A DNA stretch of 64,000 nt from an uncultured Schlesneria sp. (GTDB lineage: Bacteria; Planctomycetota; Planctomycetia; Planctomycetales; Planctomycetaceae): positions 1 to 64,000 of the forward strand of contig CAIOKO010000140.1 in the NCBI GenBank assembly GCA_903858935.1, given 5' to 3'. Of this stretch, positions 54,644-59,181 are shown piece after piece (the first letter of the stretch is position 1; every line of letters begins with the position of its first letter). The notes under the pieces were generated by a model. It did no database searches. It was not told the DNA's origin and saw nothing but the letters and a program-made list of their open reading frames with translations. The position numbers and the translations under genes were made by a program.

Positions 54644-55486
54644 TTAGTCTTCTGAAGGACGTGCCCGGTTCATCCAATGTCCCGAGGAATCCGTTCCGCT
54701 GACCCAGACCCCCTTCTGGTTCCAGCCCAGATGTGCATGCACGTCCGCGGGTGCGTAACGTAAGGTCAGGCCGCATCGACGGCGGCTGGAATCGTTCGCT
54801 TCGGAACCGTGCAACAGGAGGTCTGAGTGAAATGAAACTTCGCCCGCTTTCAGGCAATCATCCACGAAGCGACCGTACTGTTCGACGTTATCGATCGTTT
54901 GATTGAGGACATTGTGTTCGGCGGGATCGCTGGGCCGAAATGTCATTGCACCATAATGATGCGAGCCAGCAACGAATCGCATGCAGGCATTTTCGACATC
55001 GGCATCGTCGATGGCGAGCCAGACAGTGATCGCCTTTGACGGGGTCAGAGGCCAATAACTTGAGTCCTGATGCCAGGCGACTTTTTTCCCGTCGTGCGGC
55101 ATCTTGCAGAAAAAATGCGATCCCCAGCCGATGACATTTTCACCCAGCAGATCGCGAAGACAGGAAGCAATTTTGGCGTTCGTGACAATGTCCCAGACTC
55201 GACCATACTTCAGATGGGCCGAGCTGATTGAATAGCTGTCGCCGCCAGAGGCCACGACTTTCGCAAGCAAATTGTCAAAGTAACTTCGGATACTTTTGAT
55301 CTCGTCATCGGAGTAAATCCGAATTCCCGCGATGTAACCATCGCGATTGAACTGTTCGATTTGAGCGCTGGTGAGCACACGCGGCGATGTGTTCTTTACC
55401 GGATGGAAGCTCAGGTCACGAGGGATATCGGCGAGGTCGGTCTGGTCTAAAACCGCTTTGAATTCGGTCGGTGCAGGAGTTGACAT
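54644..55486 (-). CDS. Phytanoyl-CoA dioxygenase (PhyH) family protein
   Basis: A 280-residue Fe(II)/2-oxoglutarate-dependent dioxygenase. The metal facial triad is His139 and Asp141 in WHQDSSYW and a distal His, probably His226 in LLLHGSEAN. The double-stranded beta-helix is intact and no signal peptide is present. PhyH relatives hydroxylate fatty acyl groups, amino acids or natural products; the substrate cannot be read. AGGAA lies nine bases before the ATG at 55486. The next gene upstream on this strand is the TIGR03123-like protein; a functional link is not evident. Confidence 0.85.
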   Translation of the reverse strand: MSTPAPTEFKAVLDQTDLADIPRDLSFHPVKNTSPRVLTSAQIEQFNRDGYIAGIRIYSDDEIKSIRSYFDNLLAKVVASGGDSYSISSAHLKYGRVWDIVTNAKIASCLRDLLGENVIGWGSHFFCKMPHDGKKVAWHQDSSYWPLTPSKAITVWLAIDDADVENACMRFVAGSHHYGAMTFRPSDPAEHNVLNQTIDNVEQYGRFVDDCLKAGEVSFHSDLLLHGSEANDSSRRRCGLTLRYAPADVHAHLGWNQKGVWVSGTDSSGHWMNRARPSED

Positions 55487-55688: not shown

Positions 55689-56756
55689 TCATCGATGCGA
55701 TTCTGATGCCAGTTGTGCGACGGCATAGGCACAGGCGGCTTCAGCGATTCCGGATGAGAATTGTTCGGCGAGCGATATCACGGTTGCATCCTTCGTCTTT
55801 CGGTTCTCCTGGATTAACTGACGAGCGAGAAATGAACCTGATCCCGACACGATGATCGTTGAGCAGGGTAACGAAAGTCGATTGAGCACTCGTTCAAGCG
55901 ACCCTGCAAGTCGCTGTCGCTGGACGTCAGCAAGGAACCGGGCCATTTGGACGGCCTGCTCGAATGAGACCTCATCCCGGTCGCAGCACAGCATCCTCAC
56001 AATGCGATCGTGGGCCGCCTGCTTCGTAGCGGGCTTTCCGTTTGCGGTATCCAGTTCTTGCGAATTTTCAGCAATGTCCCCCAGCAGCAGATGAACGTCC
56101 AGAGTTGTGGCGAAAACCTCTGAAGCGAGTGAGCAATATCCATTTTGAAAGGGAACGCTATGAGCCACGGCGCATAGCGGTGTGCGGCTGACCCCAGAAT
56201 AAGACAATTCACCGCTTTGCAGTCGACTGACATCGGTCAGACCCAAGGGAACAGGTTTGCCATCTTTAAATGGAATGATATCTGTGGTCGTGGTGCCGAT
56301 ATCGATCAGTACTCCGCTGCCACTTGGAGCAAACTTCATCGACCAGGTGGCAAGCGCATGCCAATTCGCCGCAGCGACTCGCATCGTCGACGCTCGCGCT
56401 TCGTCGGGATTCACGAACTGACCATCAGTAGTCCAAGTCCTCAAATTCGATCGCGGGGTCTGCTCTGATGAGTTACAGGCAACCGACCGACCGGAGAGAG
56501 AGACATTGATGCAGGTCTCGACTGCATCAATAATAAAACGGACCCCTTCGGACTTCGTTGAAAAGCAGTCCGCCAACTCTGCCGTCATCGTCAATGCAAG
56601 ACGTTGCGTTTGCGGGAAAGACTTAAGAATCGAAGCAATCTGATCCTTGAGCTGTTCAGGCTGACGCCAGATTGCAAACGGGCGACTGACAGCACGACCC
56701 GTTGCGTCCGCGGCTTTAATATTTGCTCCACCGATATCAAGACCGAGAATCGTCAT
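55689..56756 (-). CDS. H4MPT/methanofuran-pathway protein (TIGR03123, MfnF-like)
   Basis: A 355-residue member of the hydantoinase/oxoprolinase-like, ASKHA-fold group that in H4MPT-using bacteria and methanogens is known as TIGR03123. The first phosphate loop is GLDIGGANIKAAD near the start and the second is VLIDIGTTTTDIIPF mid-protein; ESHR closes the sequence. In methanogens MfnF joins two precursors in methanofuran synthesis, and planctomycetes carry H4MPT-linked one-carbon genes scattered in the genome. The ATG at 56756 begins the domain; a longer frame to 56978 is not supported. No other H4MPT gene is adjacent. Confidence 0.75.
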   Translation of the reverse strand: MTILGLDIGGANIKAADATGRAVSRPFAIWRQPEQLKDQIASILKSFPQTQRLALTMTAELADCFSTKSEGVRFIIDAVETCINVSLSGRSVACNSSEQTPRSNLRTWTTDGQFVNPDEARASTMRVAAANWHALATWSMKFAPSGSGVLIDIGTTTTDIIPFKDGKPVPLGLTDVSRLQSGELSYSGVSRTPLCAVAHSVPFQNGYCSLASEVFATTLDVHLLLGDIAENSQELDTANGKPATKQAAHDRIVRMLCCDRDEVSFEQAVQMARFLADVQRQRLAGSLERVLNRLSLPCSTIIVSGSGSFLARQLIQENRKTKDATVISLAEQFSSGIAEAACAYAVAQLASESHR

Positions 56757-57007
56757 CTGTTCGATCGCCTCAGTTTTTGGGTTCGAAGACAAACGTCGAA
56801 CCACCGCCGCCGTTGGAGCCATGCGACTGGAATCAGGTTGGACTGGTCGATATTCAATATGTGTGATGAATACGAATAACACAGGACAAGCAATCCTCGC
56901 AACCCAGAGACATTGAACAACGTGATCCGACTTCGTCTTGTGATCGTTGATCCTTCTCCCGTACGATGTTCGCAACACTTAAGTTCCTTTTAGCGCAGGA
57001 AGCGTCC

Positions 57008-58255
57008 ATGCATTGTTTGATCGTTGAGACATGCGGCTTTCGCAAAAACAGGGATCGACAGCCGAATAGTGATTCTTCAAGCAAAGCCTCCGTGAATTCA
57101 CCAGAGGTCGTCTCTGTCGTCCTTTCTCAATTGACGGTCAGCGTTACTCTTGGGTTGTTGCTGATCAGCAATCTCGCCTTGGGACAGACTTTGACACGGC
57201 CCGTGCGACCGGGCGATTCGTCGTTAACGAAAGACAAACCGGCAACACCCAAAAAAGCAAACACGATCAATACGGTGATCGAGTTTGAATTGCTGCAGAC
57301 CGAAGGTGGCGGGGGCCTGCATGGACAGCAATGGTTAAAAGTCCTGGAGCCACTGGACGTATCACTGCGAGTTCGTAAACCCATCCTGGGTGACAAACCG
57401 GAAATGAAGGAACGAGAAGCAGGCAAAACTCGATACGTGACTGCAATCGGCACGCTCGATCGTTCCGGTAATCTCGTGTTCCCTGATCGATCCTTTGCCC
57501 TCAGTGATGCGACGAAACTTAAAGAATGGATCAACGAATTGCGGACATACGGGGTCAAGGGAACGCCGGTGGGAAAGTCGCTATGGGGATTAAGCGAGGA
57601 ACAATTCGCGAGCCTGTTTGATGGCTTACTCAAAAAGGTTGACTTTGAGACGGAAAACCTGCCCTTGAAGCAGGCTGTGACGAAGTTACCCCTTCCGTCG
57701 GAGTTTCCAGTACGCTGGAATTCCGATGCGGTCGACAAACTTGCCAGACTCGGAGAACAGGCTCGTGTAAGACAAGAATTAAAAGGTTTCAGCGCGGCGC
57801 TTGCACTGGCTTTGTCATTGAGCGACAACGGCTTCGGGTTTCGCCCAAACCGAACTCCTTCGGGAGTCATCGAGCTATTGATTGAGCCACGGAACACGAA
57901 GCTGGAACAATGGCCGATCGGTTGGCCGGTGCAGAAAGCCACTTTTAAAGCAGCACCGAAGCTTTACGCAATGGTTCCGATCGAACTGGCGGACGTCGAA
58001 CTGTCAGATGTTCTGACGGCCATCTCGGAACTCGCAGAAACCCCAATCCTGATCGATTACGCCGAGCTGGAAGCAAGGCAGATCGATCTGGAAAAAATCA
58101 AAGTTTCGTTCCCTCGCAAAATGACCACATGGAGCCTTGCGCTACGCCAGCTCGTTGTTCCTAAGCGATTGACTCGCGAGCTGTGGCAGGACGAAGCGGG
58201 ACGAGTCTTTGTGTGGATCACCACAACGCGAGCCGGTCGCGCGAAGGATGAATGA
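57008..58255 (+). CDS. Exported protein with STN/secretin-like C-terminal region
   Basis: A 415-residue protein of unrecognised family. An N-terminal hydrophobic segment ([15 protein letters not shown]) looks like a signal peptide after a long cytoplasmic start. The last 90 residues ([20 protein letters not shown], then ETPILIDY and [12 protein letters not shown]) have the alternating pattern of STN or secretin-N domains that bind partners in the envelope. A central part has a charged helical stretch. AGGAAG lies before the ATG. Its stop overlaps the ATG of the DUF692 gene (ATGA), which is evidence for a shared function. It has only two Cys, both near the N-terminus, so it is not an obvious DUF692 substrate. 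Confidence 0.65.
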
Positions 58256-59181
58256 TGCTCAGTCGACTTGGGTATGAGAATCTCGGTCTTGGGGTCGGCC
58301 TCAGATCGGTTCATTTCGATCACATACTGAAGCAGAACCCGCTCGTCGATTGGTTTGAAGTGATTTCCGAGAATTACATGGACTCACAAGGACGTCCAAG
58401 GTACGTGTTAGAACAAATTGCCGAAAGATATCCAATCGTGATGCATGGCGTGTCGCTGTCGATTGGCAGTACTGAACCACTGGACTTTGATTATCTCAGA
58501 AAGCTGAAACGACTGGCAATGGCCATTGATGCCCGGTGGATTTCAGACCATGTCTGTTGGACTGGTGTCGCCGGGATTAATACACATGATCTCTTACCAC
58601 TTCCCTACAATGAAGAATCGCTGCAGCACGTTATAGATCGAGTTTCAATCGTTCAAGATGTTCTCGAGCGGCCGCTTGTCCTGGAAAATCCAAGCAGTTA
58701 TGTGACGTTTGTTGCATCGACGATGAGTGAAGCCGAATTTATCGCTCGCCTTGCCGATGAGGCTGACTGTGGATTACTTCTTGACGTCAATAACGTCTTT
58801 GTTTCGGCCAAAAACCATGATTTCGATCCGGTGGAATATTTGCGATCGATGCCGCATGAGCGTGTCGTCCAGATGCATCTTGCAGGACACACTAATTGCG
58901 GTACGCATTTGATTGATACTCACGATGGCCCCGTGATCGATCCGGTCTGGGAGCTGTTTCGACTTGCTCATGGATCTACAGGCGGCGTTTCAACGCTTCT
59001 CGAATGGGACGCGAGCATTCCCGAATTCCCAATCGTTCACCAAGAGGTGCTGAAGGCCAAACGAGTCGTCGCCGATGTTCTGTCAGGCTCGCCTGACTTT
59101 TCAGGTTTCACAGTGGCCTCAAATCAACGGCAGAACATCGTACCCCACCCGTCAATCATGACGACAGCCGATGTCGAATAA
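58252..59181 (+). CDS. DUF692 (MNIO) multinuclear iron oxidase-like enzyme
   Basis: A 309-residue TIM-barrel protein of DUF692, now called MNIO. Likely metal ligands are His65 in MHGVSLSIG, Asp99/His100 in SDHVCW, Glu145 in LENPSSY, Asp179/Asn180 in LLLDVNNV, His209 and His213 in MHLAGH, and Asp222/His224 in DTHDGP, with Glu251 in LEWD. All appear intact. MNIO enzymes modify cysteines in RiPP precursors together with a DUF2063 protein; no DUF2063 gene, precursor or bufferin-type peptide is visible next to this one. Translation is coupled to the exported protein upstream (ATGA). The product is therefore open. Confidence 0.85.

Follow-up and report, generated by a model that had tools for sequence, protein, structure and literature searches.

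A BufB-type MNIO in a Schlesneria-like planctomycete as the probable maturase of a dispersed bufferin-like RiPP pathway with a twin-arginine-type signal on its precursor

The window, i.e., the whole 64,000-nucleotide stretch of DNA analyzed here, comes from a Schlesneria-like planctomycete genome (7.93 Mb, 99.96% complete) and contains, at positions 58252-59181, an open reading frame that a Pfam profile search identifies as a full-length DUF692/PF05114 protein (E 5.4e-108), the only PF05114 gene of this genome. Its ATG overlaps the TGA of the frame at 57008-58255 by four bases (ATGA), so that the gene and its overlap are both as the initial annotation had described them. The start codon of the upstream frame, which codes for an exported protein of 415 aa, is uncertain, as an in-frame ATG at 56966 would extend the product to 429 aa. 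Two further genes of the same genome, both outside the window, bear on the function of this locus, and the four features are:

57008..58255, + strand: exported protein, 415 aa, from a family found throughout the Planctomycetaceae, with no Pfam match
58252..59181, + strand: MNIO (DUF692/PF05114), BufB-type bufferin maturase, 309 aa, by profile matches and ligand alignment
C140:83255-84160, - strand: DUF2063 (PF09836, BufC-like) protein, on the same contig, by the Pfam profile
G000:C258:131547-132050, - strand: Cys-rich precursor (BufA2-like), by precursor profile A1

The MNIO scores 355.9 bits against the NCBIfam model NF050167 (MNIO_BufB), above the curated equivalog cut-off of 310, and its nearest relatives are encoded by Schlesneria MAGs (87-93% identity). 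The prior claim that all likely metal ligands are kept is borne out by an alignment to TglH (8HCI): the iron ligands H71, H107, E151, D184, N187, H216, D229, H231, and E258 of the latter (PMC10880893) have their counterparts in H65, H100, E145, D178, N181, H209, D222, H224, and E251 (9/9), all nine of which are invariant across an alignment of 29 sequences. Since D253 aligns with Asp240 of MbnB, the proposed general base, and this Asp is absent from TglH, the enzyme looks, from its residues, to be of the MbnB/HvfB kind rather than the carbon-excising TglH kind. Among MNIOs of known structure, 3BWW, which is closely related to HvfB, is the nearest in sequence.

The initial annotation had labelled the upstream protein STN-like and read the two genes as an uncharacterized MNIO pair lacking a DUF2063 partner, with either the exported protein itself or a distant precursor as the substrate. 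The STN label finds no support, as neither this protein nor 18 members of its family have any match, STN included, in a Pfam search; the AlphaFold model (pLDDT 47) is too poor for use. The idea that the overlapping protein serves the MNIO, either as a partner or as its substrate, draws on the four-base overlap, a gene order kept in nine genomes of the genus, and a co-occurrence over 59 genomes, in which the 415-aa family accompanies 27/30 BufB-type MNIOs as against 12/29 genomes without one (p 9e-5). However, this last signal vanishes within the family: outside the genus, 10/12 genomes with the MNIO and 10/10 without it have the 415-aa family, i.e., there is no association. The family occurs in 39 of the 59 genomes, 12 of which are devoid of a BufB-type MNIO, and is absent from three that carry one; where both are present, the genes adjoin in only 9/27 (G000, the window's own genome, to G007, and G014) and lie apart in the other 18. 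The four-base overlap is itself confined to the closest genomes, giving way to a gap of tens of bases or of some 180 bases elsewhere in the genus. The two Cys noted near the N-terminus are indeed there (residues 3 and 9); they precede the predicted signal helix, and the homologue comparison reveals no conserved Cys in the family, several members of which are entirely without Cys. Lastly, all those genomes of the 59-genome set with the adjoining pair also encode a DUF2063 protein. We therefore reject the exported protein as the MNIO substrate, and regard a DUF2063-free partnership of the two as highly improbable. The 415-aa gene is probably an incidental neighbor acquired in part of the genus; the overlap may couple its translation to that of the MNIO, and the protein is likely to have an envelope role unrelated to the RiPP. 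Divergent to it in the window is a gene for a probable H4MPT-linked C1 transfer pathway protein (55689-56978, - strand; TIGR03123, above cut-off), and beyond this lies one for a phytanoyl-dioxygenase-like protein (54644-55486, - strand), whose match to the chlorinating enzymes of TIGR01762 is sub-threshold (77 bits vs a cut-off of 226).

A DUF2063 partner is lacking only as far as the window extends. Genome-wide, a single PF09836 gene was recovered (63.9 bits vs a cut-off of 27.2), 24 kb beyond the MNIO on the same contig; its product falls below the NCBIfam HvfC cut-off while exceeding that of Pfam. To search for the precursor, we used a profile (A1) built from the precursors that precede the MNIO in other genera, with ten members in the alignment. 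These are proteins of 141-225 aa that bear an RRxF signal at the N-terminus along with nine core cysteines, and all ten alignment members match the BufA2 model NF050166 weakly. A1 has one match in the window's genome, C258:131559-132047 (- strand; E 2.3e-51), in a protein with the N-terminus MNTNGMDRREFHQLSLAALTGVIAGVTVGC that scores 22.8 bits against NF050166, below its cut-off of 60. The suggestion of a distant precursor is thus borne out by a protein with nine core Cys encoded on another contig, and the genome as a whole offers one DUF2063 protein and one Cys-rich precursor, so that the DUF2063-free arrangement has to be abandoned. Both observations that the initial annotation had named as speaking against its pair have thereby been made: DUF2063 and precursor genes outside the local context, and an upstream gene that differs from one MNIO homologue to another. 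No match to the Bufferin 1 precursor (DUF2282, PF10048) was found anywhere in the genome, a plasmid-borne precursor was looked for and none was found, and the AlphaFold model of the precursor (pLDDT 48) is too poor for use. More generally, orphan MNIO arrangements should not be named from one window: doing so would have been unsafe here because both partners exist, 24 kb away and on another contig.

The phyletic patterns of the three genes are closely matched. Among the 59 genomes, 30 with and 29 without a BufB-type MNIO, the precursor occurs in 30/30 vs 1/29 and DUF2063 in 29/30 vs 0/29, each pattern agreeing with that of the MNIO in 58/59; the exceptions are G008, with the precursor only, and G033, with a partial MNIO match. 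The Fisher p of 5e-16 over the 59 genomes overstates the case, given the non-independence of close relatives. With the genus set aside, the rest of the family, sampled mostly at one genome per genus, still shows the precursor in 12/12 genomes with the MNIO vs 0/10 without it (p 1.5e-6), and DUF2063 in 11/12 vs 0/10. In a sample of 393 genomes from the phylum, all 42 with a strong precursor match also have a BufB-type MNIO, within 1 kb in 35 of them. Several genomes (G026, G036, G187, G235, and G181) possess two or three strong precursor genes, in some cases outnumbering the BufB-type MNIO genes, and one MNIO may serve several precursors in such organisms.

In other genera, these genes usually form a compact operon in the order precursor, MNIO, DUF2063, which is the only unit common to their loci; conserved operon neighbors such as DoxX were not found there. 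This bufABC order in one cluster occurs in most of the other genera examined and not in the window's genome. In one of the compared genomes (L047:424-2397, - strand; G026:C292), the MNIO and DUF2063 lie in one open frame of 657 aa, being either truly fused or joined through a sequencing error in the stop codon of the MNIO. Within Schlesneria, all three genes are retained in 14/15 genomes, with the precursor never adjoining the MNIO and instead showing one of two settings. G000-G007 and G014 have it immediately 3' of leuC and in the same orientation, with 47 nt between the two genes in the window's genome (L120:7548-9589 on G000:C258; also L121-L126, L129, and L150), and these are the same nine genomes in which the 415-aa gene adjoins the MNIO. 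The leuC product, 3-isopropylmalate dehydratase, is a copper-sensitive Fe-S enzyme, and the two genes may share a transcript. In the six genomes G008-G013, the precursor instead directly precedes a mogA-type molybdopterin adenylyltransferase gene (L153:3136-4157, L127, L128, L151, L152, and L154), which it overlaps by four bases in G013.

The DUF2063 gene still lies 3' of the MNIO in G003, G006, G007, G009-G012, and probably G013; in G003, a related Schlesneria (L008/L140), the 415-aa protein, MNIO, and DUF2063 are encoded in a row. It is away from the MNIO in six genomes, viz., G000, G001, G002, G004, G005, and G014, with a distance of 146 kb in G002, which is assembled as a single contig. 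Detached copies of DUF2063 cluster with the adjacent copies from their own species group. As the tree of DUF2063 matches that of the MNIO in its main groups, we conclude that the gene moved and was not replaced horizontally from outside; support is low on whether it moved once or twice. The genes flanking it in the split group encode a large exported protein and an aldo/keto reductase, unlike those beside it in the unsplit group, which means that the move was not one clean inversion. What appears to be a second DUF2063 copy in G013 comprises two pieces at contig ends and is most likely one cut gene. Such a break-up of the operon in two steps might be read as the mark of a decaying relic whose function was lost in this subgroup, as might G008 (L154, on C95; 97% complete), in which the precursor is present and the MNIO, DUF2063, and 415-aa homologue were not found. 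Yet the nine MNIO ligands are all invariant, the enzyme remains 87-93% identical among the closest species, the detached precursors keep their nine core Cys and RR signal intact, and 14/15 genomes of the genus hold the complete set; loss of function is therefore very unlikely.

Taken together, we consider it very probable that this BufB-type MNIO acts as the catalytic subunit in a bufferin-like RiPP pathway encoded by three dispersed genes, the 415-aa gene being an incidental neighbor, and the dispersed pathway probably serves copper buffering. A template is offered by HvfBC, in which the iron center is tuned by an indispensable DUF2063/RRE partner and, in its active form of a mixed-valent diiron cluster, converts Cys to 5-thiooxazole (PMC13419390), and by Caulobacter Buf1, which chelates copper via thiooxazole groups (PMC12452194). 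The chemistry is transferred to the present system from family membership, and the metal, the route of export, lipidation, and continued cooperation of the dispersed products are inferences as well. In the most likely scheme, which follows the bufferin and oxazolin systems, the DUF2063/RRE partner (C140:83255-84160) would bind the N-terminal part of the precursor (C258) in the cytoplasm and present its Cys-rich core to the MNIO, whose mixed-valent iron center would oxidize cysteines of the core, with thiooxazole-type groups as the probable result. Once modified, the precursor would leave the cytoplasm, probably through the twin-arginine (Tat) route, to bind copper or some other soft metal on the outside, and many members are probably anchored there as lipoproteins.

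It is also conceivable, though rather unlikely, that the three proteins act together on a product that is not a copper buffer and has a role with another metal or in redox processes. Consistent with this, no copper genes were seen at the MNIO, DUF2063, or precursor loci and no copper-response gene is conserved beside any of them; the precursors are longer than the usual Buf2, with nine core Cys, a conserved C-terminal stretch, and scores below the BufA2 cut-off; and the landscape paper on MNIO pathways expects roles beyond copper (PMC12452194). Against it, the MNIO is above the BufB cut-off, and copper is the metal bound by those products of BufB- and HvfB-type enzymes that have been characterized (PMC12452194, PMC13419390). 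A copper-buffering role remains our preferred reading.

In relation to known systems, the best reading is of a variant of the bufferin-type pathway, the unusual point of which is the twin-arginine-type signal on the substrate. It is like Bufferin 2 (BufA2-BufB-BufC, Buf_6/12Cys; PMC12452194; NF050166/NF050167) in its above-cut-off BufB-type MNIO, its DUF2063 partner, the bufABC order in other genera, and an exported Cys-rich precursor with CKGxGxC-type motifs. However, Bufferin 2 has 6 or 12 Cys and uses Sec, whereas the present precursors have nine core Cys with a weak, below-cut-off BufA2 match and an RRxF twin-arginine-type signal, and their loci are without a conserved DoxX gene and, in Schlesneria, dispersed. 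The oxazolin system HvfABC (PMC13419390) similarly employs an MNIO and a DUF2063/RRE partner to modify several Cys of one exported precursor, but HvfA is a Sec substrate, the present precursor is without EGKCG repeats, and the MNIO and DUF2063 protein are below the HvfB and HvfC cut-offs, respectively. The adjamnio-I precursors, as summarized in Table 2 of the landscape study (PMC12452194), are comparable in length (122-293 aa), in Cys content (8-21), in the lack of a predicted Sec signal, and in having their gene precede an MNIO; going by that summary, their partners are of PME-type 2 without the Pfam DUF2063 signature, which the present partner passes. The present precursors may nonetheless overlap that group.

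The export signal was assessed in 38 precursors chosen by their Cys core alone: RRxF precedes a short hydrophobic stretch in 38/38, and nine core Cys are found in 37/38. A strict lipobox-like pattern is seen in 18, and in several others an equivalently placed Cys escapes the pattern. TatC is present in the genome, and from the motif, its position, and its conservation the precursor is probably a Tat substrate, with the lipobox-like Cys suggesting that many precursors are probably anchored as lipoproteins. The landscape study points out that signal-peptide-bearing precursors need a means of avoiding export before modification and describes only Sec signals, with no mention of planctomycetes or twin-arginine in its main text (PMC12452194), and no paper linking twin-arginine with bufferin-type or MNIO RiPPs was found in the literature searched. 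Somewhat speculatively, and with a little less than even confidence, we propose that Planctomycetota and Verrucomicrobiota-type genomes encode a class of MNIO-modified precursors that use Tat for export and are often lipid-anchored, and that would be modified, folded, and perhaps metal-loaded in the cytoplasm before export; the positions of the stand-alone precursor genes beside leuC or mogA in Schlesneria would then reflect a link to copper-damaged cytoplasmic enzymes. If true, modification prior to Tat export would solve the premature-export problem of Sec-type bufferins, and because Tat accepts folded proteins and can proof-read, this precursor family with its invariant twin-arginine-type motif provides a direct test case for how such export is avoided. 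The lipidated RiPP DybA (PMC12636315) is likewise an MNIO-modified precursor that becomes a lipoprotein, but differs in its ChrH-type MNIO, its macrocycle chemistry, and a lipoprotein signal described without mention of twin-arginine.
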